Source of the DNA: Candidatus Gastranaerophilales bacterium
Lineage (GTDB): Bacteria; Cyanobacteriota; Vampirovibrionia; Gastranaerophilales; Gastranaerophilaceae
Assembly (NCBI GenBank): GCA_944322885.1
Contig: CALUQH010000001.1
Coordinates: 1 to 54,609 of the forward strand
Direction: 5' to 3'
Length of the DNA: 54,609 bases
The notes under the pieces were generated by a model, which did no database searches, was not told the origin of the DNA, and saw only the letters and a list, made by a program, of their open reading frames with translations. Shown piece after piece: positions 3,435 to 38,172 of this stretch. The position numbers and the translations under genes are program-made. Every line of letters starts with the position of its first letter. Positions within the stretch are counted from its first letter, which is position 1.

Positions 3435-3488
3435 AGAATAATAATACATTTCCAAGATATGCCTGTCAAGTATTTTTAATTATGTAAT

Positions 3489-3506
3489 ATAAGCATTTGC
3501 TATTTT
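3489..3506 (+). promoter_or_regulatory. Shared promoter-region motif, copy 2 (lysR/hydrolase intergenic)
   Basis: ATAAGCATTTGCTATTTT matches 17 of 18 bases of the copy at 1927-1944. It sits in the divergent region between lysR and the hydrolase gene, about 50 bases upstream of the hydrolase start. AGCATTTGCT inside it is a short dyad (AGC/GCT). Candidate LysR binding site and -35 region. Confidence 0.5.
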
Positions 3507-3554
3507 ATTAATATGGTAAATAATTAAGATAGAAAGAAAAAAGGAGAATATCTG

Positions 3555-4430
3555 ATGGAAATAATAAGAGTAAATACCCCGAGAGGTCTTGAATTAAAAG
3601 GTGCAATGTGGGGAGATAACAGTATGGACACCGTTGTAATTATGATGAGCGGAATTTGCAGCAACGTATTCCAAAATGATTTGCTGCCTGCAACAGGAGA
3701 TTTATTAAGCGCCAATAATATTGCATTTATTGCCGGACATGCTATGGATGCTTTTTCAATGATTGCATATTCCGACTTAAAAAATCATGAACAGGTATAT
3801 ACAGGAGTTGTATTCGATGATTTTAACCTTGTATATGAAGATGTGGAAGCTTATGTGAAATACGCAAAAGAACTTGGATTTAAAAACATAATTCTTGCGG
3901 GACACTCACTTGGTTCTAATAAAATTATTGATTATTTAGGCAGCACTCCCGACAATTTTGTCGACTACTTTATAGTTACATCGCCCATTGATCTAGGTTA
4001 CTGGTGGAAGGTTATGCCTAATCTTGATAAATGTCTTGAAACTGCTAAACAGTTCGTTTCAGAAGGAAGAAATAAAGATATTCTGCCTTATGTATTCGGC
4101 GGCTTTTCTCCGATGTGTGCAGAAACAGTGCTTAATTTCCACAATGCACAACATTTAAAAAATTGTCCGGTAATAAGCGGTGAAGGAAGCAGTGAATCAC
4201 TCGCATCCATTAAAATTAACGGAGCCTTTGTTATCGGCGGGAAAGACAGTATGGCAGACGGAGACCCTAAAGGATTTATGGAAAAAATTAATTCCTGCTG
4301 TAAACATCCCGAAGCCAACAAAGTAATTGTCGTTCCTGATGCTTCACATGTTTTCTACAACAAGCATAATGAATATGCTTCAACAATTCTGGGAATTACA
4401 GAAAATGCAGTCGGGACTTTAGTCGGCTGA
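3555..4430 (+). CDS. Alpha/beta hydrolase family protein (DUF1749-like)
   Basis: The 291-residue protein carries the nucleophile elbow GHSLGS near residues 117-122 (serine nucleophile) and a C-terminal DASHVFYNKH in which the histidine would complete the triad. MMSGICSNVFQNDLLPATGD near the start fits the oxyanion region of hydrolases acting on small esters or similar substrates. There is no signal peptide, so it acts in the cytoplasm. AAGGAG stands 9 bases before the ATG. It is divergent from lysR and ends at a two-way terminator at 4446-4481. The natural substrate cannot be told from sequence. Confidence 0.75.
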   Translation: MEIIRVNTPRGLELKGAMWGDNSMDTVVIMMSGICSNVFQNDLLPATGDLLSANNIAFIAGHAMDAFSMIAYSDLKNHEQVYTGVVFDDFNLVYEDVEAYVKYAKELGFKNIILAGHSLGSNKIIDYLGSTPDNFVDYFIVTSPIDLGYWWKVMPNLDKCLETAKQFVSEGRNKDILPYVFGGFSPMCAETVLNFHNAQHLKNCPVISGEGSSESLASIKINGAFVIGGKDSMADGDPKGFMEKINSCCKHPEANKVIVVPDASHVFYNKHNEYASTILGITENAVGTLVG

Positions 4431-4445
4431 TAATTAGTTTTTATA

Positions 4446-4481
4446 AAAAAAATCCGCCTTATCAATTCGGCGGATTTTTTT
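4446..4481. terminator. Bidirectional intrinsic terminator, 13-bp stem
   Basis: AAAAAAATCCGCC at 4446-4458 pairs with its exact complement at 4469-4481 around a 10-base loop. A and T tracts on both sides make it work in both directions, and it lies between the convergent hydrolase gene and DUF362 gene. Confidence 0.9.
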
Positions 4482-4493
4482 ATTTTTGACTTT

Positions 4494-23757: not shown

Positions 23758-25086
23758 TTAACGTAAAAATCTGAGCCATATATAACCTGAACTTAATACT
23801 AAAGATACAAGTACAACAACAACACCATATTTTAAAAATTGCATAAATTCTATTTTATGTCCGTGATGAGCGGAAGTTTCAGATACAATAACATTTGCAG
23901 CCGCTCCTATAATCGTCAGGTTTCCGCCAAGACATGCACCTAAAGACAAACACCACCACAAAGGCAGAGTATATTCCGCCCCCATAACATTTCTTATTTC
24001 TAGAAGCATAGGAGTCATAGTTGCAGTGTATGGAATATTATCAATTACTCCGGAAATCAAACCGGAAGCCCATAGAATAATCATTGCTGTTGCAGTTTCT
24101 GAGCCTTCCGTAACATTCAAAACCCATTTTGCCATAATAGCAATACCGCCTGATGCCTCAAGACCGCCAATTATAATAAATAAACCTATAAAAAAGAAAA
24201 TAGTATTCCATTCAACTTCACAGAATATACTTTTCGGTTTTTCGAACAACAACAAAAAGCTTGCCCCTAGCATTGCAGTGACACATGTTTCTATATGAGT
24301 GACATCGTGAAGAATAAATCCAAGTATAACAAGGCCCAAAACAACAGCACTTCTCACCATTAGAGGGAAATCCGTTATAGTTTTTGAATTATCCATATTA
24401 GCAACAGCTGCCATTTTTTCTTCCGTAGTATGCAGTTCGTGTCTGAAAAACAGCCACATTAAAAACAATACAACCAGCATTATTATGGTAATAATAGGAG
24501 TTAATTCATTTACAAAATCCATAAAAGACAAACCTGCAGCACTTCCTATAATAATATTCGGCGGATCACCAATTAAAGTAGCAGTCCCGCCGATATTTGA
24601 AGCAAAAATTTCGGTCAAAAGATAAGGAACAGAATTTATATTTAATTGTTCAGCAATAAAAAATGTTACAGGCATTATAAGGATTACTGTTGTTACATTA
24701 TCTAGGAACGCTGATGCAACGGCAGTAAATAATCCCAGAGTAATTAAAATTCCAACGGGATGCCCTTTGGTAAGTTTCAAAAGTTTATTTGCAGCCCAGT
24801 TAAACATACCGCTTTTAGCTGCAATACTCACAATTATCATCATCGAAACAAGTAAAAATATTACATTAAAATCAACAAAATTAATAAAATAGTGAGGGTC
24901 AATTGCGCCATCAACAATTTTTGTTTGGCTGACAAGTCCAAGCAAAATCGTAATTCCAGCTCCTAGCAGAGCAACAGTAACCTTAGGGATTTTTTCCAGT
25001 GCAATAAATATATATGCAATTAAAAGTACCCCAGCAGATATTGCAACACTATGGGTCTGAACTATAGAATGTAAATGCTCAATCAT
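23758..25086 (-). CDS. ArsB/NhaD-type ion transporter superfamily protein
   Basis: The 442-residue inner membrane protein has about 11-12 hydrophobic segments and two inverted half-repeats, each with a signature loop: SAFLDNVTTVILIMPVTF and NIGGTATLIGDPPNIIIG in the first half, SGVIDNIPYTATMTPMLLE and GGNLTIIGAAANVI in the second. These are the hallmarks of the ion transporter superfamily (ArsB, NhaD, P protein, SLC13). Sequence alone does not separate Na+/H+ exchange from arsenite or organic-anion transport; no ars gene is nearby. AAGGGAAA lies before the ATG. Confidence 0.82.
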   Translation of the reverse strand: MIEHLHSIVQTHSVAISAGVLLIAYIFIALEKIPKVTVALLGAGITILLGLVSQTKIVDGAIDPHYFINFVDFNVIFLLVSMMIIVSIAAKSGMFNWAANKLLKLTKGHPVGILITLGLFTAVASAFLDNVTTVILIMPVTFFIAEQLNINSVPYLLTEIFASNIGGTATLIGDPPNIIIGSAAGLSFMDFVNELTPIITIIMLVVLFLMWLFFRHELHTTEEKMAAVANMDNSKTITDFPLMVRSAVVLGLVILGFILHDVTHIETCVTAMLGASFLLLFEKPKSIFCEVEWNTIFFFIGLFIIIGGLEASGGIAIMAKWVLNVTEGSETATAMIILWASGLISGVIDNIPYTATMTPMLLEIRNVMGAEYTLPLWWCLSLGACLGGNLTIIGAAANVIVSETSAHHGHKIEFMQFLKYGVVVVLVSLVLSSGYIWLRFLR

Positions 25087-25161
25087 AAAATTTCCCTTTT
25101 TCTTCCGCCTGTTAAACTAATATGTATAAATTATAACATAAGAGAAATTTTATAAAAATTT

Positions 25162-25425
25162 TTACACCAACTCTAAATTGGCAGTCGTAAACATTTTAAT
25201 GTAATTTTTTATATCCTCTGAAGCAACATGACACCTAAATTTACCTAATGGGTACTTACTATAGTGATAAGCAGAAGAAAGAAGTATAAATTTCATTGCG
25301 TCAATAACATTCATAGTTGATAAATCTACAAAAATTTCAGGGCAGTGATGCTTTTTTACATAATTCTTAAATTGCTCAGAAATATTATTATAGTTATACT
25401 TATTGCAATCAAAATACTTTATCAT
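25162..25425 (-). CDS. Small protein of unknown function, STAS-like fold possible
   Basis: I do not recognise this family firmly. The 87-residue protein reads MIKYFDCNKYNYNNISEQF, then CPEIFVDLSTMNVIDAMKFI, a central beta strand and helix that look like the core of STAS-type anti-anti-sigma or sulfate-transporter domains (strand, Asp-Leu-Ser, helix). It has no signal peptide or membrane helix. ATG at 25425 is used; an in-frame TTG is 6 bases upstream, and neither has a ribosome site. It is divergent from kdsD. It could be a partner-binding regulator, but that is only inference from fold impression. Confidence 0.5.
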   Translation of the reverse strand: MIKYFDCNKYNYNNISEQFKNYVKKHHCPEIFVDLSTMNVIDAMKFILLSSAYHYSKYPLGKFRCHVASEDIKNYIKMFTTANLELV

Positions 25426-25500
25426 ATTCAATTTGTCGTATTTTTTTTACAAAATTTAAATATTTTAGCTGAAATTAATACTTTTAAACGATATTTATTA

Positions 25501-25506
25501 TATAAT
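25501..25506 (+). promoter_or_regulatory. Candidate -10 box of the kdsD operon
   Basis: TATAAT lies 26 bases before the kdsD ATG with GGGGGA between, giving a short normal leader. No clear -35 box is seen 17 bases upstream. Confidence 0.4.
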
Positions 25507-25531
25507 TTCATTATTGATGGGGGATTAGGAA

Positions 25532-26521
25532 ATGGAAACAGTAACTATGACTAACAGTAAAATTAACGAACTCGCAAAAAATGTTCTTGATATTGAGGCT
25601 AATTCAATACTTCGTCTGAAAAACAGCATTGGAGAAGATTTCGACAAAGCCGTTGATATTCTCTATAACTGCAAAGGCAGAGTAATAGTTACGGGAATGG
25701 GGAAATCCGGTCTTATCGGAAGAAAAATTGCCGCAACCCTTACATCTACGGGAACCCCTTCTTATTTTCTCCATCCGGCAGAAAGCACCCATGGTGATTC
25801 GGGAATTATTACACGTAATGATGTTGTTATTGCAATATCAAACAGCGGAGAAACTCAGGAACTTTTAAATCTTTTACCGCTTATTAAACGTTTCGGGGTA
25901 ACAATGATAGGTATGACAGGAAAAATGAATTCTACCCTTGCTCATTCATCAGATGTTACGCTTGATATTTCCGTTGAAAAAGAAGCATGCCCGCTCAATA
26001 AAGCACCTACGGCAAGTACAACCGCAACTTTAGCAATGGGAGATGCTCTTGCTGTATGTCTTCTGGAAAAAAGAGGTTTTTCAGAAGAAGATTTTCTTAT
26101 CTTCCACCCGTCAGGCGCGCTCGGCAAAGGATTTACTTATAAGGTCGCAGATTTAATGCTCACAGAATCTGACAAACTGCCTATTGCCAGAGAAACAAAT
26201 TCGTTTGCAGAAGTTATTGAATTAATATCAGAAAAAAAACTCGGTATGGCAATGATTGTAAATGAAGCTGGCGAATTAACCGGAGTTTTGACAGACGGTG
26301 ATATAAGAAGAACGCTTATTAAATATCAAAATATCAGGCCGCTTCTTGCAAAAGATGTAATGTCTGTTAACCCGAAACATATTTCTAAAACAGATTACGG
26401 TGCAAGCGCTCTTAACTTAATGGAAAAGTATTCAATCACAGCACTTGCTGTTGTTGATGAAAATAACAAACCTATAGGGGTAATACATATTCATGACCTT
26501 TTAAAAGCAGGAGTTGCATAA
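25532..26521 (+). CDS. kdsD: D-arabinose-5-phosphate isomerase (KpsF/GutQ family)
   Basis: The 329-residue enzyme converts ribulose-5-phosphate to arabinose-5-phosphate, the first step to Kdo, the inner sugar of lipopolysaccharide. The SIS domain (about 35-175) has VTGMGKSGLIGRKIAATLTSTGTPS and AISNSGETQELLNLLP; STTATLAMGDALAVCLLE and FHPSGALGKG are family marks. Two CBS domains (about 205-329) follow. It is the first gene of kdsD-kdsC-queD-uppP; its stop directly abuts the kdsC start. Its presence implies a lipopolysaccharide outer membrane. Confidence 0.95.
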   Translation: METVTMTNSKINELAKNVLDIEANSILRLKNSIGEDFDKAVDILYNCKGRVIVTGMGKSGLIGRKIAATLTSTGTPSYFLHPAESTHGDSGIITRNDVVIAISNSGETQELLNLLPLIKRFGVTMIGMTGKMNSTLAHSSDVTLDISVEKEACPLNKAPTASTTATLAMGDALAVCLLEKRGFSEEDFLIFHPSGALGKGFTYKVADLMLTESDKLPIARETNSFAEVIELISEKKLGMAMIVNEAGELTGVLTDGDIRRTLIKYQNIRPLLAKDVMSVNPKHISKTDYGASALNLMEKYSITALAVVDENNKPIGVIHIHDLLKAGVA

Positions 26522-26989
26522 ATGACAATAAAACTTGTGGCATTTGATGTTGACGGAGTGTTAACAGACGGAAGTTTAACATTCGATGAAAACGGACATG
26601 AATATAAAACTTTTAATGCAAAAGACGGTCAGGGCATTGTTAATTTGAATAATGCCGGAATTGTTACGGCAATTATTACAGCAAGAAATAACGGCACCGT
26701 TGCACACAGAGCAAAAAATCTAAATATAAAAGAACTTCATCAGGGTTCTAAAAATAAAATCGCAACTCTTGAAGGGATTATGAACAAATATAATATTTCT
26801 TTTGACGAAATTGCATATATGGGAGATGATTTGCCCGATATTTGTATTTTAGAAAAAGTTGCGTTAAAAGGATGCCCTGCTGATGCAGTTGACGAAGTAA
26901 AAGAGATTGCAAATTTTGTTTCTTCTAAAAACGGCGGACGCGGAGCCGTCAGAGAATTTTGTGATTATATATTAAAAAAGAGGATATAA
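26522..26989 (+). CDS. kdsC: Kdo-8-phosphate phosphatase
   Basis: The 155-residue HAD-type phosphatase removes phosphate from Kdo-8-P. Asp9 and Asp11 in FDVDGVLTDG form the catalytic pair; TARNNGTVAHRAKNL and YMGDDLPDI (metal-binding Asp pair) complete the fold. It has no cap domain, as in KdsC/YrbI, which act as tetramers. It starts on the base after the kdsD stop, so the two are coupled. The intervening enzyme (Kdo-8-P synthase, kdsA) is not in this window. Confidence 0.94.
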   Translation: MTIKLVAFDVDGVLTDGSLTFDENGHEYKTFNAKDGQGIVNLNNAGIVTAIITARNNGTVAHRAKNLNIKELHQGSKNKIATLEGIMNKYNISFDEIAYMGDDLPDICILEKVALKGCPADAVDEVKEIANFVSSKNGGRGAVREFCDYILKKRI

Positions 26990-26992
26990 AAA

Positions 26993-27355
26993 ATGTTTGA
27001 AATTAAAACACAGGCTTTTTTTGCCGCTGCTCATCATCTTCTGAATTACGAAGGAGAATGCGAAAATCAGCACGGACATAACTGGATGGTTGAAGTTTAT
27101 GTTAAAGGTAATACGCTTGATAAAAGTAATATATTAATAGATTATAAAGTTTTAAAAAAAGAATTGAAAGCCGTTTTGGATTTGCTTGATCATAAAGATA
27201 TAAATGCACTTCCGGAATTTAAAGGTGAGAGTCCTTCAAGCGAAATGATATCAATGTTTATTTATAATAAATTAAAAGAAAGAGTTGTCCAATTGAGTAA
27301 GGTAACTGTATGGGAAACCCAGACATCATGCTGCAGCTACTATGAAGAAGAATAG
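26993..27355 (+). CDS. queD: 6-carboxytetrahydropterin synthase (QueD/PTPS family)
   Basis: The 120-residue enzyme makes 6-carboxy-tetrahydropterin, the first committed step to queuosine (7-deazaguanine) tRNA modification. Zinc ligands His15, His27 and His29 stand in AAAHHLLNY and ENQHGHNW, the catalytic Cys23 in GECEN, and the C-terminal pterin-binding Glu in VWETQTSCCSYYEEE. It starts 3 bases after kdsC ends, on the same transcript. A PTPS-IV or other subfamily cannot be excluded, but the CxxxHGH spacing is that of QueD. No other que gene is nearby. Confidence 0.9.
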   Translation: MFEIKTQAFFAAAHHLLNYEGECENQHGHNWMVEVYVKGNTLDKSNILIDYKVLKKELKAVLDLLDHKDINALPEFKGESPSSEMISMFIYNKLKERVVQLSKVTVWETQTSCCSYYEEE

Positions 27356-27375
27356 ATTTTAAACAGGAGAATATA

Positions 27376-28221
27376 ATGAATTTTATACAGGCTATATTAA
27401 TGGGGATAGTACAGGGGTTGAGCGAATTTTTGCCTATATCCAGCTCAGCGCATCTGGTTTTTACATCTAACTTTTACAAAGTTTTTAAAGGTATAGAAAT
27501 TGTTCAAACTTCAAATGAAGAAGTATTTTTTGACATTATGGTGCATCTTGGGACATTAATCGCCGTATTAATATTTTTCAGAAAAGACATAATGAATATT
27601 TTAAAAGCAATGTGGCATGCTCTAAAAACAAAAGATTGGTCAAATAATGAAGCAAAACTCGGTTTATTCATTATTTTAGGAACAATTGTCACTGTTGCTC
27701 TTGCCCTGCCTATTAATGAAGTAGCTGAAAAACTTGTTTATGCACCTTCTATTGTGGGAATACTGCTTTTCATAACAGGTTTTACGCTTTTATACAGCGA
27801 ATATAAGTCAAAAAAGATTGAAGAAAAAAAGAGCGAAATGGATTTAAAAACATCAATATTTATCGGTCTGGCTCAAGGTTTAGCCGCACTTCCAGGTTTT
27901 TCCCGTTCGGGTTGGACCATCGCAACAGGTTTATTTTGCGGGTTGGACAGAATAACAGCCGCAAGATACTCATTTTTGCTTAGTATTCCAATTATTTTAG
28001 GAGCTTCCATGGTTTATCCGCTTGTAAAAATTGATATCCATGAAGCCATGCAGTATAATTGGGAAGCAATAACAGCCGGAACAATAGTTTCTGCCGTTGT
28101 AGGATATGTGTGTATAAAATATTTTATGAAATTCATATCAAAGTTTTCTCTTGCAATATTCGGATATTACTGTATTATAGCGGGTCTTGCAACAGCCGTT
28201 TTCTTTGCGGTATACGGCTAA
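27376..28221 (+). CDS. uppP: Undecaprenyl-diphosphatase (BacA/UppP)
   Basis: The 281-residue membrane protein recycles undecaprenyl pyrophosphate to the monophosphate carrier for peptidoglycan and polysaccharide synthesis; extra copies give bacitracin resistance. The two active-site blocks are present: GLSEFLPISSSAHLV near residues 14-28 and ALPGFSRSGWTIATG near 171-185. About eight hydrophobic segments. An AGGAG site precedes the ATG. It completes an envelope operon with kdsD and kdsC. Confidence 0.95.
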   Translation: MNFIQAILMGIVQGLSEFLPISSSAHLVFTSNFYKVFKGIEIVQTSNEEVFFDIMVHLGTLIAVLIFFRKDIMNILKAMWHALKTKDWSNNEAKLGLFIILGTIVTVALALPINEVAEKLVYAPSIVGILLFITGFTLLYSEYKSKKIEEKKSEMDLKTSIFIGLAQGLAALPGFSRSGWTIATGLFCGLDRITAARYSFLLSIPIILGASMVYPLVKIDIHEAMQYNWEAITAGTIVSAVVGYVCIKYFMKFISKFSLAIFGYYCIIAGLATAVFFAVYG

Positions 28222-28316
28222 GTTCTTTGTTAAAAAATGTAAAAATTTAAGCATGACTATCAAAAAATAAAATTCACAGGTATTCTAATTAATACGTCTA
28301 TTTGTGTGGAGTAAAG

Positions 28317-29348
28317 ATGATTTTACCTATCAATAATATCAAAAATTCCATAAATTTTTCTGCTGACAGTAATCCCAAGGATAAGAAGACTCTGGAATAC
28401 GACCATGACACATTGCTGCCAAACAATCTTTCTACCAGCGCAAGAATAGGAATGGATAAATTGACAAATGCTTTTACTTTATATCCTGCTAAAGGAATGA
28501 AGGGAAGTAAGAATGCGAATTTTTATGAATTTTTGACAATGGGTACGGTTCCTTATATTATAGGCAGTATCGGTTTAATGGCCGTATTTAATTTTGCAAA
28601 TAAATTTTTCCCTTCTGCATTTGATAAGATACAAGCATCAAAAATAGGACAAAAAATGGCTCTTGGAGTATTATTTTACGCTGCTGCAAAGAGTCTTTCC
28701 AAACAATTAATAAGCCGTCCCGTTAATATGCTCACCGGCGTAGATATAGACCAGCCCTATGCAAAAGTTATTTATGAACTTCCTGATAACATAAATGATA
28801 CGGATATTACAAGTATAGAATATCATAAAGTATTTGAAAGCGTCGAATTCCCACGCTGGGATTTGTTATACGGAGATGAAAGCAAAGGAGAAAAACGTAA
28901 TTTCCGTTATGACAAAATCGCAAAAAAATTAAATATGGGTGAAAACCTTAATGATTCAGATCAGGAAACAAAACCAAGGATAAAAGAAATTATTGTAAAA
29001 TCAAATGTTGCAAAGAGTATTTCATCGTATATGTGGGCTGCAACCGGAGTTGCACTTGCATTCCAAAAACCGTGGGAAGAATACTTTAACGCAATGACAT
29101 TTAAGTTCTGGAAGCCCCAAGAATTTTTCAAATCAATAAAAGTATTTGGAACAAGCTTTGCTAAAAGTGCCAAAGCACTTTATAAAGGGGAAGGAAATGG
29201 TGTAACAAAACATGCCGGAAAAATTCTTCTCGGAGCAGCAGTCCTTACATCAGCCTTGGGTGTAATAAATACTGTTGCAGGCTCCAGAAATACTCCTAAA
29301 TCAAAATCAGATATCATTAAAACTGACGAAAAACATGTGGTAAGCTAA
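28317..29348 (+). CDS. Unrecognised membrane protein A of the 28-33 kb operon
   Basis: I do not recognise this family. The 343-residue protein begins MILPINNIKNSINFSADSN with no signal peptide. It has two hydrophobic segments near 71-92 (PYIIGSIGLMAVFNFANKF) and 105-120, a conserved-looking FPRWDLLYGDE near 181, a basic/acidic stretch, a further hydrophobic segment near 240 (SSYMWAATGVALAFQ) and one near 315. The order hydrophobic pair, PxWDL motif, helix, hydrophobic segment also occurs in the next gene, so the two are probably paralogues. GTGGAG lies 7 bases before the ATG, which is chosen over a TTG at 28302. One base separates its stop and the next ATG. Confidence 0.65.
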   Translation: MILPINNIKNSINFSADSNPKDKKTLEYDHDTLLPNNLSTSARIGMDKLTNAFTLYPAKGMKGSKNANFYEFLTMGTVPYIIGSIGLMAVFNFANKFFPSAFDKIQASKIGQKMALGVLFYAAAKSLSKQLISRPVNMLTGVDIDQPYAKVIYELPDNINDTDITSIEYHKVFESVEFPRWDLLYGDESKGEKRNFRYDKIAKKLNMGENLNDSDQETKPRIKEIIVKSNVAKSISSYMWAATGVALAFQKPWEEYFNAMTFKFWKPQEFFKSIKVFGTSFAKSAKALYKGEGNGVTKHAGKILLGAAVLTSALGVINTVAGSRNTPKSKSDIIKTDEKHVVS

Positions 29349-29349
29349 T

Positions 29350-31923
29350 ATGACATCAAATTTAATACAAAACTACATAACAAAACCAACGGGCGTTATA
29401 AACCAGCAAACGGTAAAAAAACAAGAAACGCCTAAAAAGCCGATGCCTGATTTTGATATCCAGAGAGAACTTGATAACAGAACATTTATTAAACCTCTTG
29501 AAGGTAAGGGAAGACTGCTTAAGGGGAATATATTTAATGCACCTGCTATATTGGTTAAAGATATAATTTATGATGCAAAAGCTTTAAAACATGCTGTCAA
29601 CGGAAAAGCAAATGATCATGAATTAGGAAAACTTAACGACTTAGGTTTGTTTTTAGGCGGACTTTCAATTGCAGGATACTTGTTTACAAGAAAACAAACT
29701 CCTATGACAAAAGGGATGGAATTTGTAGGACTTGCATCCTTTTTAGGAGCAATGGCAATATGGCCTAAAATAGCAATCCAATTACCAGCTTATTTAATCC
29801 ATGGTGTTAATGTACAGAAAGAATATGAAGACAGTTTTGGAAGGAAAAAACCATTCTATCAGGATCCGCAGTTCCTGCCCTGGGATTTATACAGCGAAAA
29901 AGAAATTGACAAAATGGGCGACAGAATGGGAGTGCCTAAAGATATTCCTAACAGACGTGAATTTATTCAGGAAAAAATGAAAAAAATCGGTATCCAGAAT
30001 AATACTTTATGGATGCTGACAGCAGGTTTTGCCACACCTGTAATGAGCGGTCTTATTTGTAATTTTGCAGAACCTTATCTTAACAAATATCTTGATAACA
30101 AAAATAATAAGGCTGCAGATAAAATTTTAACTGATTTAGACAATTATTCACAAAAATATAAATATACTTCTCTTGAACAGGATTTAATTAAAATATTAGA
30201 TGCAAATCAAAATAAACCTCTAACTAAAGAGATAGAAGAATCAATAACTTCAGTTCTCACAAGATATATGGATCCTGTTACGGCAGAAAGTTTTAAAGCC
30301 GACTTGAAAGAAGCAGCTTTCGGTAAAGAAACTTATAAAATAGAAGACAAAAATGTAACACAAATTATTGAAAATCTGAAAAAAGTATTTAAAAAAGTTC
30401 CGGATGCTGATGAAGAATTTTTAAGAATTGTAATCCCTGATGAAAAACGAATAGTTGATGCACTGAAAAAAAACAATATATTTGGAAAAGATATTACATC
30501 TGTTGAATTCAGTACTGTATCAGATACAATAAGAAACCTTATAACGGAAAATGCAACAGATTATAATAAAACACATCCTGATAAACAAAAAGATATAAAA
30601 TTTATTCGTAAATTAATTATTAATAATATGACAAAAGACAGGGATTCAAATCCTGTAAAAATTGTTCTTTCAAAAGCAACATCTAATATTCTTGATACAA
30701 ATATTGTTAATAAATTGAAAAAAGTTGTGAAATTGATAGACAACTTTAATATGAAACAATTTGCACTGGATGAATACGCTCTGAAAAAAGTCGGCGCAGC
30801 TCCTGAAACAGTTATTGCAAATTACTGGAACGATGTTGCACGTGATCTGATGAAAACTTTAGGCTTTACATCCGAAGACATTGCGAAAACAAGAAGCGAC
30901 AGAACTCTTATGGGAGCCGTTTTAAGAGAAAAAATTGAACATGTTGTTTCAGATAAAAATGCTTACAACAAAGTTATGGAAAAACTGGTTAAGAAAATTG
31001 CTGAAATTAACAGCAAAATCAAAACAAGTGATTTATCAACACCTTTATTATCCAAAACTTCTGCAAACAGTGCTTATGACACGATTGTAGACAGCTTGTT
31101 TGACGGATTTGCCAACCAGTTGAAAAAAGCCGATATAGGCTTTACAAGAACAGCAAAAGCAATTGCAGGTACTGACAGCAATGATGTTACGGGAACAGCA
31201 AAAGAACTCCAGAAAACTTATGTCCGTGAAAGACTGCTGGGAGTAAAAAGTTCTTTCTATAGAATTATTAATACACTTGATATGTACAGAAGAATAGCAA
31301 CTGATGCAAATGCAATACCTGCACTTCAAGGCAAATATATAGAAGTAAAAGAAGAATTAATTGAATTATGTAAAATTATTACTCTGGAGGGTCACTCATC
31401 AGATCATGCGACTAAATTCTACATGCTGAGAAATCAGCATCCTGATAAAACAACCGGTCCTGTTGAAGTTAAAGACGGGAAAGTGGTAAACAAATTCTTT
31501 GGAAAAACTACTCAGCTCGCAGATATTCCTGGTGATAAATACTTCTATCAGGACGCTATGAGACTTATGTATGAAGGCAACATGCACACTGATACAATGT
31601 CGGCGCTTAAAGAATCAAGTATTAAAGATGAAGTTTTGAGATACAGAAATGAGGTTCTTGAAAAATTAGGCGGAGAACTGTATTTTGCAAAACCGCGCCA
31701 CTTAATCAGAGAGTCCAATACTACAGGTTCTGATATCAAATTCCTTTTAACCGGTATAGCTCCGGATGAATTAATATTCAAAACAGGTCAGCAATTATAC
31801 AACAGCAAAAAATGGCTGAAAATATTCGGCGGATTTGGAGCCGGCTTGTTAGGTGTAACTATATTGGCACAGTTCTTCCTCGGCAAAATGAAAAACCCTC
31901 CCAAAACAGGTGAACAAAAATGA
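29350..31923 (+). CDS. Unrecognised large membrane protein B of the 28-33 kb operon
   Basis: The 857-residue protein has no family I can name. Residues 95-145 hold a hydrophobic hairpin (LFLGGLSIAGYLF, VGLASFLGAMAIWP); DPQFLPWDLYSEKEIDKMGDR near 172-191 parallels FPRWDLLYGDE of protein A; a third hydrophobic stretch follows near 220-240. Residues 245-820 are a long, Lys-, Asp- and Asn-rich, mostly helical soluble region with heptad-like stretches, and the end is a membrane helix (WLKIFGGFGAGLLGVTILAQFFLG) before a short tail. The stop overlaps the start of the GH13 gene as ATGA. This shape suggests a membrane-anchored scaffold. Confidence 0.65.
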   Translation: MTSNLIQNYITKPTGVINQQTVKKQETPKKPMPDFDIQRELDNRTFIKPLEGKGRLLKGNIFNAPAILVKDIIYDAKALKHAVNGKANDHELGKLNDLGLFLGGLSIAGYLFTRKQTPMTKGMEFVGLASFLGAMAIWPKIAIQLPAYLIHGVNVQKEYEDSFGRKKPFYQDPQFLPWDLYSEKEIDKMGDRMGVPKDIPNRREFIQEKMKKIGIQNNTLWMLTAGFATPVMSGLICNFAEPYLNKYLDNKNNKAADKILTDLDNYSQKYKYTSLEQDLIKILDANQNKPLTKEIEESITSVLTRYMDPVTAESFKADLKEAAFGKETYKIEDKNVTQIIENLKKVFKKVPDADEEFLRIVIPDEKRIVDALKKNNIFGKDITSVEFSTVSDTIRNLITENATDYNKTHPDKQKDIKFIRKLIINNMTKDRDSNPVKIVLSKATSNILDTNIVNKLKKVVKLIDNFNMKQFALDEYALKKVGAAPETVIANYWNDVARDLMKTLGFTSEDIAKTRSDRTLMGAVLREKIEHVVSDKNAYNKVMEKLVKKIAEINSKIKTSDLSTPLLSKTSANSAYDTIVDSLFDGFANQLKKADIGFTRTAKAIAGTDSNDVTGTAKELQKTYVRERLLGVKSSFYRIINTLDMYRRIATDANAIPALQGKYIEVKEELIELCKIITLEGHSSDHATKFYMLRNQHPDKTTGPVEVKDGKVVNKFFGKTTQLADIPGDKYFYQDAMRLMYEGNMHTDTMSALKESSIKDEVLRYRNEVLEKLGGELYFAKPRHLIRESNTTGSDIKFLLTGIAPDELIFKTGQQLYNSKKWLKIFGGFGAGLLGVTILAQFFLGKMKNPPKTGEQK

Positions 31924-33644
31924 TTAATACGACAAACTTAATTGCTTTAAAAATTCAACAAATACAGCCTAATACTTTTGAAAGTAACAAGAGTACGGAT
32001 ACACAGCCTGCACAAATTAATTCAAGCTCAGGCTTATTAAACGCATATCTGAATAATCTTGCAATGATTAATACTCCTGCCGTTAAAAAGTCTGAAACAA
32101 CTGCACCTGTTAATTACCATAATAACTTTAGAACAATGGTAAAAAATAATGAAGCAAAAATTCTTGCCATTGTAATGAGAACCTTTAACGCAAAAGATAC
32201 AAACGGAAACGATTATATCGACGGGAACGAACAGAATGGCACCTTCCTAAATGCTATAGAAAGACTTGATGAAGTAAAAGCTCAAGGCTTTAACACACTA
32301 CACGTGCTGCCTATTCATCCGCCGGGAAAAATGAAAGCTATGGGAACAGCAGGTTCGATTTATGCGCCCAAAGATATGCTCGCCATTGACCCGAATTTGG
32401 TTGATAAAAATGACCCAAGAACTGATAAAGAGCAATTTAAAGCATTCATAGACGAATGTCATAAACGCGGAATAAAAGTTATGCTTGATATGCCAAGTTG
32501 TGCATCATACGACATGTTCCTTGAGCATCCGGAATGGATGGCAAAAGAACGCGACGGACTTGCTAAAACTCCTCAGGGATGGAACGACATCAGAATGTTT
32601 CAGCCATGGGAAGATGAAGGTAAAAGAACATTAAACCCAAAACTGCTTGAACTTCATAAACAGTTTGTTGACATGTGTATTGATCTGGGAGTTGACGGCA
32701 TCAGATCTGATGTTGCAAGAGCTAAACCGGTTGAATTCTGGGATATTATAATTCCTTATTCACACATGCGTGATCCTGAGTTTGCATGGCTTGCAGAAAC
32801 ATATACATATGAGGACGCTTCTCCGCAGGCAAATATGGCATTTGACAGGCCGGAAGATTCTTTAAGAGCCGGATATGACATGATTTACGGACAATACCAT
32901 ATCTTCCATGAATTTCCGAACGCAACTACATTTATGAATTACGTAAAAGAAATGCTTGATATGTCTTACAGATTACCTAAGGGAAAATCTTTAATAGGTT
33001 CATTTGCAACACATGATGATGTATCTCCAATGTTCCACGGCGGTGCTGCTTATTGTAATCTGACAATGGGATTGCAGGCAACATTACCTATGCTTAATCC
33101 CTATATTGTAGACGGTTATCAATCAGGCGATGATTATATTTATCCTTATGAAGATAAATACAATCCTGTTACACAGACTGACAACCACGAAATGACAGTT
33201 CACAGAGGAAAACTTGATATCTTTAACTTATCAAGAAAACCTGGCGGAACTCAGCCGGAAATAGGGAAATTCATGACAAGTGCCTTTAATATGAGAGATA
33301 AATATCTCGATGTTATCACTAAGGGAACTTTCATTGAATTAGATAAAAAAGGCGATAAAAACGATCAAATAATTACTTATGCAAGACATTTGAACGGAAA
33401 AACACTGCTTGTAGTAGCTAACAAAAATGTTAACCGTTCAGTAGCATGTAAAATAGAAGTTCCGACCTTAAAAGCAACACAAGAATTAAAAAATCTTCTT
33501 CCTTCATACGGCAAAGAAAGCAAATTTCAGGTTCATGACAACGAACTTTGTGTTGATGTAGGTCCTGCTAGAGTTCATGTATTTGAAATAGATACCCCAA
33601 ATATTGAAAATTACAGCAAAAAAATATACAAACAAAATATTTAA
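31920..33644 (+). CDS. Alpha-amylase family (GH13) enzyme with an EF-hand loop
   Basis: The 574-residue protein is a TIM-barrel glycosidase of GH13. The four conserved regions are visible: LHVLPIHPPG; GVDGIRSDVARA with nucleophile Asp264; FAWLAETYTYE with acid/base Glu293; SFATHDDVS with Asp366. A C-terminal beta domain (about 475-560) follows. Residues 1-75 are Asn/Thr/Gln-rich and have no signal peptide, so the enzyme is cytoplasmic or uses a non-standard route. Residues 93-104 are a textbook EF-hand calcium loop (DTNGNDYIDGNE). Substrate could be maltodextrin, glycogen or sucrose-type glucan. ATGA overlap with the preceding gene couples it to two unknown membrane proteins. Confidence 0.88.
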   Translation: MINTTNLIALKIQQIQPNTFESNKSTDTQPAQINSSSGLLNAYLNNLAMINTPAVKKSETTAPVNYHNNFRTMVKNNEAKILAIVMRTFNAKDTNGNDYIDGNEQNGTFLNAIERLDEVKAQGFNTLHVLPIHPPGKMKAMGTAGSIYAPKDMLAIDPNLVDKNDPRTDKEQFKAFIDECHKRGIKVMLDMPSCASYDMFLEHPEWMAKERDGLAKTPQGWNDIRMFQPWEDEGKRTLNPKLLELHKQFVDMCIDLGVDGIRSDVARAKPVEFWDIIIPYSHMRDPEFAWLAETYTYEDASPQANMAFDRPEDSLRAGYDMIYGQYHIFHEFPNATTFMNYVKEMLDMSYRLPKGKSLIGSFATHDDVSPMFHGGAAYCNLTMGLQATLPMLNPYIVDGYQSGDDYIYPYEDKYNPVTQTDNHEMTVHRGKLDIFNLSRKPGGTQPEIGKFMTSAFNMRDKYLDVITKGTFIELDKKGDKNDQIITYARHLNGKTLLVVANKNVNRSVACKIEVPTLKATQELKNLLPSYGKESKFQVHDNELCVDVGPARVHVFEIDTPNIENYSKKIYKQNI

Positions 33645-33668
33645 ATAAGGCACATTAAATAAACAAAA

Positions 33669-33698
33669 AGATGTAACTATTTTACAATAGTTACATCT
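33669..33698 (+). terminator. Intrinsic terminator of the membrane-protein/GH13 operon
   Basis: AGATGTAACTATT at 33669-33681 pairs perfectly with 33686-33698 around a 4-base loop; AATTTTGATTTTTTTTT follows. It ends the three-gene operon 25 bases after the GH13 stop. Confidence 0.85.
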
Positions 33699-33849
33699 AA
33701 TTTTGATTTTTTTTAGTGTTTGAAGTAAAATATTCAGGCAAGGAATAAAACTTTAACCAAGCCGAAAATTTATACAAAATTGTTATAAAAAAAATATAAA
33801 AACGGAAGCGAGCTTAAAAGCAAAGCGCCTGATAAAAATATAAAATGTC

Positions 33850-33866
33850 CTGACAATAACTGTCAG
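33850..33866 (+). promoter_or_regulatory. Short hairpin next to the panD ribosome site
   Basis: CTGACA-ATAAC-TGTCAG forms a 6-bp hairpin that ends on the GAAAGGG ribosome site of panD. It could modulate initiation. The rest of the 180 bases between the terminator and this hairpin shows no clear gene or strong promoter. Confidence 0.3.
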
Positions 33867-33880
33867 AAAGGGTAAAAATA

Positions 33881-34237
33881 ATGCTACAAGAATTTATTAG
33901 TTCAAAAATACACAGAGCAACGGTTACAGACGCAAATCTAAATTATGTGGGATCTATAACTATTGATGAAACGCTTATGAAAGCTTCAAAAATCCAAGAA
34001 TGGCAGAAAGTTGATATTCTTGATATTAATAACGGAGAAAGATTTCATACATACGTTATTAAAGGAAAAGCCGATTCCGGTATGATTTGCCTTAATGGTG
34101 CTGCAGCAAGAAAAGTACAGCCAGGAGATAAGGTTATAATAATTGCATACGGACTTTATAACCCTGAAGAAATGAACAATTACAAACCCAAGATTGTAAT
34201 CGTTGATGATAATAATAAAATTTCTAGTATTCAATAG
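33881..34237 (+). CDS. panD: Aspartate 1-decarboxylase
   Basis: The 118-residue proenzyme cleaves itself between Gly24 and Ser25 (YVGSITID) to form the pyruvoyl group that decarboxylates aspartate to beta-alanine for pantothenate and coenzyme [15 protein letters not shown] at the start, RFHTYVIKG near 49-57 and [21 protein letters not shown] match the family throughout, and the length is normal. Other pan genes are not nearby. Its last 14 bases overlap the end of the convergent XRE regulator gene. Confidence 0.96.
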
Positions 34238-34538
34238 ATTTATAAAAATTATATAGAAGTTTAACAAGCTTTGGTTGGTCTTCTAAAGCTTGTTTTAATT
34301 CGTTTTTCATATCCTCATCAGATATGTCAGTAAAATAATAAAATTCCCATGGCGCAACTTGTAATGCTTCGGATAATTTTTGAAGGGTCTCTACTGAAGG
34401 TGAATACTTACCTGTTTCCAAATAACTTAAACTTGGAGTTTCAATATTAATAAGTTCTGCCAGTTTTTCTTGAGTAAACCCTTTAGATTTACGAATAGTT
34501 TGAATTTTTTTGCCTAACAATTTTTTAAAATCAGACAT
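34224..34538 (-). CDS. XRE-family helix-turn-helix regulator
   Basis: The 104-residue protein has a Cro/CI-type DNA-binding domain at residues 8-63 ([22 protein letters not shown], then [20 protein letters not shown]) and a helical tail of about 35 residues. AAGAGG precedes the ATG. It lies between panD (tail to tail, 14-base overlap) and the prepilin-fusion gene (head to head across 132 bases), so the latter is its most likely target besides itself. No toxin partner is seen. Ligand unknown. Confidence 0.88.
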
Positions 34539-34606
34539 ATTTACCTCTTAAATATTATTTTATAAATGAGGCTAATTAAAAATAATGTAATACTTTATTT
34601 TTTACA

Positions 34607-34635
34607 TTGACTATTAATGCAATATAAGATAAAAT
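34607..34635 (+). promoter_or_regulatory. Promoter of the prepilin-adhesin fusion gene
   Basis: TTGACT at 34607-34612 and TAAAAT at 34630-34635 with 17 bases between form a good sigma-70-type promoter. The start would be near 34642, leaving a 29-base leader with GGGAG before the ATG at 34671. Confidence 0.6.
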
Positions 34636-34670
34636 ATAAATAGTTACATTAAATTTATGGGAGTATTTTA

Positions 34671-36539
34671 ATGTTAAAGATTAAGCCAGGTTTTACATTA
34701 GCCGAAATGATGGTAGTAATGTTAATTTTGAGTATAGTCATGGCAGCAATGGCGCCTGTAATGACGACCCGTAATAAACTGGATCAGTCATCCCCGTGGC
34801 AATGGTCAACCAACGGCTCTGATGCCTATTATGGTCTGGGAGATGCACAGGTAGCCATGATAGGTCAGCAGGAAGCTCAAAACGAAGATGCCGGAGCCCG
34901 TTTGGTTATCAATACTGGAGACGGTAAGGACCATATCTTATTTAAAACGGATGAAACAGTTCTGGGACGTTTAAAGTTTGAGAACAACGGATTATTGCTC
35001 GGGAATTTGGCAAGCGGTAATCTGGTAGAGAATTCTGTAGCTATCGGACGAAATACCCGTGTTTCGGTAGAGGATTCAACGGCAGTTGGTACTAATGCAT
35101 CGGCTCCGAACAATAATGCAACAGCGTTAGGTTATGGCGCTGAATCAAACGGTTATGCATCAATAGCCATAGGCGGAAGTTCAAATGGCGGTCATTCGGC
35201 TCAAGCAACAACTGACGGTTCAATAGCTATCGGCGGGAACTCATATACCGGAGGATTAAATAGTATTGCAATAGGCTTGGGTGCAAATGCCAATGCTGAA
35301 AATAGTATTGCAATCGGTCTGAATACAAGAAATTTGGCTGGCGGTACAAACAGTATTGCAATTGGTCAAAACAATACAGTTAGTACTATTGACGGCATAA
35401 TTTTAGGTAACTCAAATACTATTTCTTCTGGCGGTATAGCCATTGGTAAATCAGTACATACAGGTTTATACGGTGTGGCCATAGGAGTCAATAGTGATGC
35501 TAGTGACGGTGTAGCCATAGGCGGGAGTGCTACTGAGAATTTTGGAGCAGTATCCGGTTATCATTCTATAGCTATCGGTCCAGGTGCCGAAGCTGCGGAT
35601 TATTCAACGGCTATAGGTTACAATGCAACATCTTCGGCCGCTTGGGCAACATCTTTAGGTTACTCTTCACAAACGTCAGAACGTTATGCAACGGCAGTGG
35701 GATATAATTCTGTAGCTTCTGCTTATTATGCAACAGCACTTGGTTACAATGCTGAAGCTTCCGGTACTCATTCTATAGCTATAGGATCGGTTAATGCTGC
35801 TTCTGAAACCAACTCAATAGCTATTGGCTGGGGTACAAATGCATCGAAAGCCAATAATGTAGCAATTGGTGGTTCTGCATGCTATGCTGCTACGGGCAGT
35901 GGCGTAACCTGTATAGGTGCAAATTCCGGGCCTGTTGCCGGTTCCTCTTTAACAAGTGCTTCTAATATAGTATATCTGGGAAATTCAAATGATACAGTAT
36001 ATATTCCGGGTAATTTGGTTGTTGATAATCATGTTTTATTAAATAGGAATAGTAATAGCAAAATCTACTTTCGAGAAGGAGATGGAAACAAAAATATATT
36101 TATGTTTGCTAAAGCAGATTCATCTGGGAAAGCTATGCATGGTAGTTCAATGTATGGAACGATAAATGTCGGAGTATTTGATGCTACAGGTTTTGTTACC
36201 GCTATTGATGGGATAAATTCTGACCGTCGTTTGAAATACGTCAGTAAAGAAAACACATCAGGTTTAGATAAAATAAAACAATTAAAAGTATTTAATTACA
36301 CCTTTAAAAAAGATGAAAAGAAAACTCCACATGTAGGTGTAATTGCTCAAGATTTGCAAAAAGTTTTTCCTGATGCGGTAAAAAAAGGAGTTGACGGCTT
36401 TTTAAACATACGTATGGAAGATATGTTTTTTGCAATGATAAATGCAATTAAAGAACTTGATGCAAAATATCAGGCGCAGGAAGCACGTATCAATGAACTT
36501 GAAGCCCGTATAGAAAAATTAGAAGCAAGAATTAAATAA
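34671..36539 (+). CDS. Prepilin/YadA-head/S74-chaperone fusion protein
   Basis: The 622-residue protein combines three parts. (1) A type IV prepilin leader: MLKIKPG|FTLAEMMVV with Glu at +5 of the mature form and a hydrophobic helix to about residue 32. (2) Residues about 110-445: about twenty copies of the YadA-head/Hep_Hag signature (NSIAIG, YATALG and similar), the left-handed beta-roll of trimeric autotransporter adhesins. (3) Residues about 515-622: an endosialidase-type intramolecular chaperone (peptidase S74) with the Ser517/Lys522 self-cleavage pair in NSDRRLK, HVGVIAQDLQKVFPDAV, and a closing coiled coil (NELEARIEKLEARIK). It has no YadA beta-barrel anchor. Inferred role: trimeric surface fibre displayed through the pilin export system. 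Confidence 0.88.
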   Translation: MLKIKPGFTLAEMMVVMLILSIVMAAMAPVMTTRNKLDQSSPWQWSTNGSDAYYGLGDAQVAMIGQQEAQNEDAGARLVINTGDGKDHILFKTDETVLGRLKFENNGLLLGNLASGNLVENSVAIGRNTRVSVEDSTAVGTNASAPNNNATALGYGAESNGYASIAIGGSSNGGHSAQATTDGSIAIGGNSYTGGLNSIAIGLGANANAENSIAIGLNTRNLAGGTNSIAIGQNNTVSTIDGIILGNSNTISSGGIAIGKSVHTGLYGVAIGVNSDASDGVAIGGSATENFGAVSGYHSIAIGPGAEAADYSTAIGYNATSSAAWATSLGYSSQTSERYATAVGYNSVASAYYATALGYNAEASGTHSIAIGSVNAASETNSIAIGWGTNASKANNVAIGGSACYAATGSGVTCIGANSGPVAGSSLTSASNIVYLGNSNDTVYIPGNLVVDNHVLLNRNSNSKIYFREGDGNKNIFMFAKADSSGKAMHGSSMYGTINVGVFDATGFVTAIDGINSDRRLKYVSKENTSGLDKIKQLKVFNYTFKKDEKKTPHVGVIAQDLQKVFPDAVKKGVDGFLNIRMEDMFFAMINAIKELDAKYQAQEARINELEARIEKLEARIK

Positions 36540-36593
36540 ATTTGTTTATTCAAAATAAACGGCCGTATATCGGCACGTTTACTTTCATTCCTT

Positions 36594-36624
36594 ACCCGCA
36601 TTAAAAATATGCGGGTTTTCTTTT
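36594..36624 (+). terminator. Terminator of the prepilin-adhesin fusion gene
   Basis: ACCCGCAT at 36594-36601 pairs with ATGCGGGT at 36609-36616 around a 7-base loop, followed by TTTCTTTT. Confidence 0.75.
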
Positions 36625-36657
36625 ATAACCCGCACTTTCAGTATCTATAAAAATAAT

Positions 36658-37158
36658 TTATCTGTAATTAGTAAATTGCAAAGGATAATCGTATTTTTCT
36701 TCATTTGAACGCAGAAGCTTGATAATATCCTGCAAATCATCCTTATCTTTTCCGGAAACTCTTACCTGATCTCCCTGTATTGATGCCTGTACTTTCTTTT
36801 TTGAATCTTTAATATCAGCAACAATTTTCTTTGCCAGTTCCTGATTTAGGCCCTTCCTGAGCTTAAACACCTGTCTTACTTTGCCGCCAAGCGCATTTTC
36901 AACAGGTTGAGGATCAAGAATTTTTATACTCAAATTTCTTTTTACAAGTTTTGATTGGAGAATATCATAAATATTTCTCAATTTCATATCATCACTTGTT
37001 GTAATAGTAATTGTTTTATCAGCATCAAGGTCAACAGTTGAACCTGAATCTTTTAAATCAAAACGCGAAGAAACATCACGTTTTACCTGATCAACAGCGT
37101 TTACAAGTTCCTGTCTGTCAAATTCAGACACAACATCAAAACTACAATCTTTTGCCAT
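36658..37158 (-). CDS. yajQ: YajQ-family nucleotide-binding protein
   Basis: The 166-residue protein follows the YajQ pattern along its length: SFDVVSEFDRQELVNAVDQVKRDVSSRFD at the N-terminus, then paired ferredoxin-like domains ending SNEEKYDYPLQFTNYR. Some members bind cyclic di-GMP (XC_3703-type) and act with transcription factors; others bind nucleotides or tRNA. AGAAGGGGG lies before the ATG. It stands alone between the fusion gene (convergent) and a small membrane protein gene. Confidence 0.94.
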   Translation of the reverse strand: MAKDCSFDVVSEFDRQELVNAVDQVKRDVSSRFDLKDSGSTVDLDADKTITITTSDDMKLRNIYDILQSKLVKRNLSIKILDPQPVENALGGKVRQVFKLRKGLNQELAKKIVADIKDSKKKVQASIQGDQVRVSGKDKDDLQDIIKLLRSNEEKYDYPLQFTNYR

Positions 37159-37260
37159 TTGAACCCCCTTCTTTTTTCTTATATGCCATTATAACATGGA
37201 AAATGCAAGATAGAAACTACCTTGCATTTTGTTTTGGATGGGGGGATGGATAAACTTTTA

Positions 37261-37680
37261 TTATGTTGTCTTGTTCTTTTTCTTAAATAAATTTTTTATT
37301 CTTTGCCCCAGAGTAACTTTAGGCTTTTTAGTACCTTTAACCCAATTTACCAAATCATTCCACTTATTGCCCAAATATTTTGTTAACCCGCCCGAAGTTC
37401 TGATACCCTTTCGGATTCTTCCGATGCCGCCCAGTGCAAGAATTACTGCCAATGCGATACCGGCTATTTTCAGAGTTTTCTTTCCATCGTTTTCTTTTTG
37501 CTTCATAGTCTGGAATTTATCATGGTCAAGCTGTCTTGGGAGCTGAACTCCGCCCAGAGCCGAAGAATAAGCACCATACATGCCGGCGCCATAAGCACCA
37601 AACGGCATATTCAAAGGTCCCATTGTGCTGTTTGCAAGATCCTGATACATTATTGGGGTATCAAAATTACTACCTATCAT
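37261..37680 (-). CDS. Small membrane protein of unknown function
   Basis: I do not recognise this family. The 139-residue product has a Gly/Met/Tyr/Ala-rich N-terminal third (GPLNMPFGAYGAGMYGAYSS), one membrane helix near residues 68-86 (LKIAGIALAVILALGGIG), and a strongly basic C-terminal tail (LGQRIKNLFKKKNK). The start at 37680 has GGAG 9 bases upstream; an ATG at 37686 is too close to it. A type II-like membrane protein or a soluble protein that binds membranes or nucleic acid is possible. Confidence 0.6.
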   Translation of the reverse strand: MIGSNFDTPIMYQDLANSTMGPLNMPFGAYGAGMYGAYSSALGGVQLPRQLDHDKFQTMKQKENDGKKTLKIAGIALAVILALGGIGRIRKGIRTSGGLTKYLGNKWNDLVNWVKGTKKPKVTLGQRIKNLFKKKNKTT

Positions 37681-37767
37681 AACCATTTTCTCCAGATTGA
37701 AAACTAACCTTATTTATATAAAGTATTTTTCTATAGAAAAATTTACTAAATTATTAAGAAATATTAA

Positions 37768-37796
37768 AAAAGACCTTGATATACTCAAGGTCTTTT
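37768..37796 (-). terminator. Intrinsic terminator of rpmI-rplT
   Basis: A 12-bp perfect stem (AAAAGACCTTGA with its complement) around a 5-base loop lies 26 bases beyond the rplT stop. On the minus strand a T run follows the hairpin. Confidence 0.9.
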
Positions 37797-37821
37797 CAAT
37801 TAAATTAAGTTTAAAAATAGC

Positions 37822-38172
37822 TTACTTAGCTGCTTTTGCCGCATCAAAGACAACTGAAAAAGCTTCAGGATCTTTAACAGCCAAGTCAGCAAGCATTTTT
37901 CTGTTAACAACAATATTAGCTTTTTTGCAAGCATTAACAAATCTTGAATAGCTCATACCGCGTTCTCTAACAGCAGCATTAATTCTTACAATCCACAAAC
38001 GACGCATATTACGTTTTGTAGTACGTCTGTCTCTGTAAGCATATTTTAAAGCTTTCATTACAGCAATATTGGCAACTTTAAAAATTCTGCTTCTTGCGCC
38101 AATAAAGCCTTTAGCTAATTTTAATATTTTTTTATGTCTTTTACGTAATACATTTCCGCGTTTTACTCTCAT
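37822..38172 (-). CDS. rplT: 50S ribosomal protein L20
   Basis: The 116-residue, very basic protein matches L20 throughout: [44 protein letters not shown] and a globular C-terminus ([20 protein letters not shown]). L20 binds 23S rRNA early in assembly and in many bacteria represses its own operon through a leader that mimics the rRNA site. It follows rpmI by 10 bases and ends at a terminator. A good AGGAGG lies before the ATG. Confidence 0.97.

Follow-up and report, generated by a model that had tools for sequence, protein, structure and literature searches.

One question raised by the window, a 54,609-nucleotide stretch of DNA from Candidatus Gastranaerophilales bacterium that is contig C1 of a 1.86-Mb genome in 40 contigs, is why an amylase-type enzyme should be encoded in one operon with two proteins of no recognised family. 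Gastranaerophilales are widespread gut, non-photosynthetic relatives of Cyanobacteria, known almost wholly from metagenomes. Glycogen use or storage has been predicted in this group (PMC5877343, PMC4040986, PMC3787301), and a literature search found no paper describing this operon. The trio as such matched nothing in any library searched, in agreement with a first-pass annotation, made from the sequence alone, that had called it undescribed. The genes and the signal that follows them are:

28317 to 29348, + strand: P1, 343 aa from an ATG start at 28317, predicted to be membrane-associated (ORF)
29350 to 31923, + strand: P2, 857 aa, a predicted membrane-associated scaffold (ORF)
31920 to 33644, + strand: P3, 574 aa, a GH13 enzyme without signal peptide (ORF and Pfam PF00128)
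33669 to 33698, + strand: hairpin and probable terminator, a 13-bp stem with 3 G-C pairs, then AATTTTGATTTTTTTT

The ORF coordinates bear out the three reading frames as first drawn, with a single base between P1 and P2 and an ATGA overlap between P2 and P3; the ORF reading also gives an alternative in-frame TTG for P1 at 28302. The operon had been said to close with a strong terminator. A hairpin is present (fold z -4.0) and is a real terminator candidate, but strong was generous, because the stem has only three G-C pairs and the T-tract is also interrupted, and plausible is the better word. A scan for sigma-70-like promoter sites yielded nothing above chance, and no Rfam families were found in positions 24000-38000 of the window.

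The arrangement of the three genes is not due to chance. Single-sequence searches of 97 related genomes recovered P1 in 71, P2 in 72 and P3-like GH13 proteins in 84, where a secreted paralogue contributes to the last figure. The junctions are equally tight elsewhere: when the best 80 of 330 relatives found were inspected, 77 further loci carried all three genes, with gaps of -19 to +10 nt between neighbours, the remaining three being short contigs that are each one trio gene short. In locus maps of divergent relatives, P1, P2 and P3 are adjacent and co-oriented across the whole order while their neighbours change, and a second family of the class keeps the order with two of the genes fused, so the gene order on which the first-pass proposal depended extends well outside this genome. 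A P2-domain profile run against 386 genomes from the phylum matched only families f1, f6, f7 and f9, all of the same class, and searches of plasmids with the P2 domain and of phages with P1 returned none.

Other genes near the trio were noted in passing. At 34671-36539 of the window (+ strand), Pfam shows a protein in which YadA head repeats and a Peptidase_S74 chaperone domain are combined, unusually, with a pilin-type N-terminal methylation motif, and of which G021 has a diverged copy; at 37261-37686 (- strand) lies a gene for a 141-aa protein with no Pfam match that is conserved in the same relative. In G062, tandem genes just downstream of the trio (L139:564-2453 and 2600-4483) encode EF-hand-like proteins, 629 and 627 aa long, that both begin with MTSIQNNMSYDFNKDGKVTYDD.

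The strongest evidence for P2 and P3 acting together is a gene fusion found in two class-level relatives, G081 and G091, both of family f9, where P2 and the GH13 enzyme form a single ORF of 1030 or 1082 aa:

L095:5820-8912 and L096:6000-9248: fused P2-P3 ORFs of G081 and G091

In both genomes the fused ORF directly follows a P1 homologue, with a 4-nt overlap; it begins with the P2 N-terminal domain and ends with the GH13 domain, and between them lie first a shorter linker and then the C-terminal hydrophobic helix. Segment D of P2 is the segment that immediately precedes the GH13 domain. The fused GH13 domains cluster with P3, apart from the secreted paralogues, in a midpoint-rooted tree. The fusion places the enzyme beside the C-terminus of P2.

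A second relationship within the operon links P1 to P2, in which the following parts can be distinguished:

28404 to 29030, + strand: P1 residues 30-238, homologous to the N-terminal domain of P2 (hhalign, P2 profile)
28848 to 28865, + strand: P1 motif FPRWDL, residues 178-183
29506 to 30027, + strand: P2 N-terminal domain common to P1, residues 53-226
29872 to 29889, + strand: P2 motif FLPWDL, residues 175-180
30070 to 31749, + strand: P2 variable insert, residues 241-800, predicted to be nearly all-helical (alignment and model)
31822 to 31878, + strand: P2 C-terminal hydrophobic helix (segment D), residues 825-843

P1 and the N-terminal domain of P2 align in hhalign with a probability of 98.8 and an E value of 1.3e-16 over 172 columns, and among 1324 proteins searched with hmmsearch the P2-domain profile retrieved 93 P1 proteins and nothing further besides P2; uppP, kdsD and kdsC, included as controls, gave no match. 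The AlphaFold (AF2) models of P1 (pLDDT 77.8, pTM 0.73) and P2 (pLDDT 83.6, pTM 0.72) have a common order of elements, namely three helices, a beta-hairpin, the FxxWDL motif, a short helix and a long helix. The first-pass annotation had noted a shared order of features around F-x-x-W-D-L in two proteins matching no family it could name, and had asked whether they share a fold; profiles and models answer in its favour. The insert of about 560 residues, which precedes the last hydrophobic helix of P2, is fast evolving and little conserved, and its size varies between genera. Homology of the C-terminal region of P2 to P1 was rejected on profile-profile comparison. Neither protein belongs to a Pfam, NCBIfam or PHROGs family, with no curated cut-off reached, and searches of PDB sequences gave no credible relative, only two designed proteins at E 0.016-0.017. 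Foldseek returned no PDB match for either model at E <= 0.001, and the best VIA Z scores, 7.0 for P1 and 6.8 for P2, are within background for helical models; BAR domains, which top the VIA list for P1 at Z of about 7, are not trusted. Judged by profile comparison and predicted structure, P1 and P2 are members of one domain family, unnamed so far.

The third protein is a member of a well-known enzyme class, and its conserved sequence regions (CSRs) are located as follows:

32484 to 32507, + strand: CSR-I, LDMPSCAS, without the usual Asn-His
32697 to 32729, + strand: CSR-II, GIRSDVARAKP, with nucleophile D264 at 32709-32711
32787 to 32807, + strand: CSR-III, WLAETYT, with acid/base E293 at 32796-32798
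33003 to 33029, + strand: CSR-IV, FATHDDVSP, with transition-state D366 at 33015-33017

P3 exceeds the cut-off of the Pfam Alpha-amylase family PF00128 (23.9 bits against 22), lacks a hydrophobic N-terminus or signal peptide, and retains the catalytic triad, consistent with its initial description as a complete GH13 glycosidase free of a signal peptide. D264, E293 and D366 are invariant in 33 homologues (31 of 31 P3 proteins and both fusions). The core D-x-P-S of CSR-I recurs in the fused homologues, with DLPSCAS the form in most P3 orthologues, and this unusual region could reflect a different substrate. The closest solved relatives are AmyB of T. neapolitana (4gkl), the maltosyltransferase of T. 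maritima (1gju), an amylase of L. plantarum (3dhu) and GlgE. Both the T. maritima enzyme and GlgE transfer maltosyl units, and we infer from these sequence relatives that P3 may have maltosyl specificity. Matches of P3 to GlgE in the PDB span residues 93-297 at most, with no full-length GlgE-type match encountered, and no GlgE model is among its NCBIfam matches. A link to anti-phage defence was rejected, the one match being a weak one of P3 to a GlgB model. The secreted paralogue, which has a signal peptide, is encoded at L113:8373-9917 (contig C37 of the window's genome), L131:5767-7314 and L132:1251-2798; in G046 and G042, two genomes without the trio, Ser or Asn stands in place of its nucleophile Asp, and there it may be a non-catalytic glucan-binding protein.

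By co-occurrence and adjacency, the trio has a fourth partner, which in the window's genome stands alone:

L135:5402-9574 (G000:C24:46404-50573), - strand in L135: P4, 1390 aa, GH13-like

This protein has an insert of about 500 residues between CSR-I and CSR-II and conserved catalytic residues. Complete P4 ORFs run to about 1260-1550 aa and are GH13-like by Pfam in their first third; the RxD, E and HD residues are retained in most sequences that cover them. P4 adjoins the trio in members of f1, f3, f5, f7 and f9, and its presence and absence equal those of P2, since among the 97 genomes it occurs in 71 of the 72 with P2 (the figure is 71 because the P4 match in G076 is weak and lies in an ORF of different size) and in none of the 25 without. 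Fisher p values for this co-occurrence are 2.6e-22 overall and 6.7e-12 within the order, computed on genomes that are phylogenetically non-independent. Within the order, genomes without the trio are scattered over several genera and families, so that the genes were probably lost together on several separate occasions; the genes missing from G073 (66% complete) probably reflect an assembly gap, since P3 is present. A common N-terminal targeting motif, [ILV]xFxG, occurs in 10 of 12 P4 homologues and was rejected, being enriched neither in P1-P3 nor genome-wide.

The genes that accompany these proteins give some indication of the polymer on which they might act. In G091, a cluster at L224:2188-10345 has a GT35 phosphorylase, a GH77 MalQ, a GT5-like synthase and an MFS gene beside P4 and the trio. 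The window's genome encodes GlgA (contig C12), a GT35 protein (C3), three GH57 and two GH77 genes; its PF00128 matches are P3, P4 and one C31 protein with a hydrophobic N-terminus, to which the secreted paralogue on C37 is to be added, and no GlgB-like GH13 was seen in this genome. Members of f7 (G063, G068, G071) and f9 (G081, G091) have the trio with no GlgA match over the cut-off, and nine or ten genomes of the order without P1, P2 and P4 retain GlgA (for instance G042, G046 and G049). The presence and absence of the trio are not tied to GlgA, and its membership of an obligatory GlgA glycogen core was rejected. Long GT5 proteins that resemble starch synthases, 750-1100 aa in length and in one case with a hydrophobic segment at the N-terminus, are found beside or replacing GlgA (L231:4011-6875, L229:5962-8793, L224:6476-8845); patchy and mixed with GlgA matches, they were rejected as a fixed partner of the trio.

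A role in cytoplasmic storage-glucan metabolism is favoured because P3 is without a signal peptide, its relatives handle maltosyl units, and GT35, GH77 and GT5-like genes are its neighbours in G091. Of the two machines suggested at first pass, one for storage glucan and one for surface polysaccharide, the former gains from this evidence and the latter finds little to support it. The surface version, in which the target is an alpha-glucan of the cell envelope or one that is exported, with P1 and P2 as a transport or assembly platform and P3 and P4 trimming or extending the polymer before or during export, is in our judgement unlikely. It fits the membrane-associated appearance of P1 and P2, the persistence of trio and P4 without canonical GlgA in f7 and f9, and the presence of kdsD-kdsC-queD-uppP upstream of the trio in the window's genus and part of its family, but locus maps show that this KDO/uppP neighbourhood is not retained in divergent families, no export or glycan-polymerase gene was seen travelling with the trio, and P3 lacks the signal peptide that its secreted paralogue possesses. 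That there is no joint machine at all, and that an orphan amylase is simply co-transcribed with two membrane proteins of unrelated function, we consider highly improbable. Operon linkage alone is no proof of common function, and rate co-variation is uninformative (in a mirror-tree analysis that set the trio against neighbouring genes, partial r of 0.36-0.48 within the trio, against -0.06 to 0.62 for other pairs, did not single it out), yet P2 and P3 are fused in one family, the gene order is kept despite changing flanks, and presence and absence are matched with P4.

How P1 and P2 relate to the membrane bears on a further alternative. Their designation as membrane proteins is likely to be right. 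Segment D of P2, present in most homologues, reaches a mean Kyte-Doolittle value of 1.77, and segment C of P2 has no charges inside. These features argue against P1 and P2 coating glucan particles as soluble or monotopic proteins that do not cross the membrane, with hydrophobic helices that pack mutually or bind a polymer or lipid surface. Such a coat keeps a modest probability, as segments A-C are weakly hydrophobic (means of 1.16-1.42), K or R flanks every segment on both sides, and soluble controls in the window have similar hydropathy peaks (2.07 for leucyl-tRNA synthetase and 1.84 for NAD synthetase). No topology is readable for either protein because segments A-C are marginal and positive charge lies on both sides.

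The preferred reading, to which we give an even chance, is that P1 and P2 form a scaffold associated with the membrane, by which GH13 enzymes are positioned on alpha-1,4-glucan in the cytoplasm. Both would be diverged copies of one scaffold domain, composed of a helical hairpin, a beta-hairpin, FxxWDL and a long hydrophobic helix, and would be embedded in, or attached to, the inner membrane on its cytoplasmic side. P2 would add a large helical arm and the C-terminal hydrophobic helix, next to which P3 would be held in a physical complex; in one lineage the two are covalently joined at that point. P3 would most likely cut or transfer maltose units at the ends of alpha-1,4-glucan chains, the giant P4 would work with it, and trio and P4 together would make up a membrane-associated unit whose presumed direction is the remodelling or mobilising of storage glucan.

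If storage glucan is indeed organised at the membrane, this unit, kept in nearly all Gastranaerophilales and built on scaffold proteins that fit no described family, would represent the equivalent, in bacteria, of starch-targeting scaffolds and would show glycogen-type metabolism organised in a new manner. More speculatively, and with little confidence, P1 and P2 might represent a new bacterial class of scaffold that builds a membrane-attached glucan body, a dedicated site at which two unusual GH13 enzymes, P3 and P4, shape or mobilise storage alpha-glucan, and that goes back to an ancestor of Gastranaerophilales and of one or more other families in the class. Family models of P1 and P2 would give several hundred genomes an annotation.

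Among known enzymes, members of GH13_48 (AmyB, 4gkl; 3dhu) are some of the best PDB relatives of P3, which has the GH13 triad in common with them. GH13_48 is recognised by NH at the end of CSR-I, a Cys before the CSR-II nucleophile (found in 81% when two related subfamilies are pooled), the N of NHD in CSR-IV and L-[DN] ending CSR-V, and starch and glycogen are substrates from which AmyB releases maltose (PMC11239784); the title of a reference cited there describes AmyB as intracellular and exo-acting. P3 has neither the CSR-I NH nor the Cys, for which the window's protein has Ser and the orthologues have Ala in most cases and Val or Ile in some, and also lacks the N of CSR-IV; at the aligned position of CSR-V it reads FQ where pairwise alignments read by eye have LD in 3dhu and FD in 4gkl. 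By the published criteria P3 is not a GH13_48 enzyme, and it differs further in that it shares an operon with scaffold proteins and is in some genomes fused to one. GlgE (GH13_3) and 1gju are moderately similar to P3 over the first half of the barrel, which would make cytoplasmic maltosyl transfer plausible for P3; they differ in that the P3 match is of partial length and its CSR-II reads GIRSDVARAKP.

The non-catalytic proteins PTST and LESV/ESV1 of plants position glucan enzymes or polymers, and P1 and P2 may resemble them in function only. Neither has a match to a carbohydrate-binding module in Pfam. In the 4F2hc/rBAT heteromers (SLC3) of animals, a GH13-type domain is extracellular, and that of 4F2hc is without catalytic residues. 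P3 differs in keeping the triad and carrying no export signal, and the membrane partners look unrelated, but the two arrangements would be alike in tying a GH13-type domain to a membrane partner.
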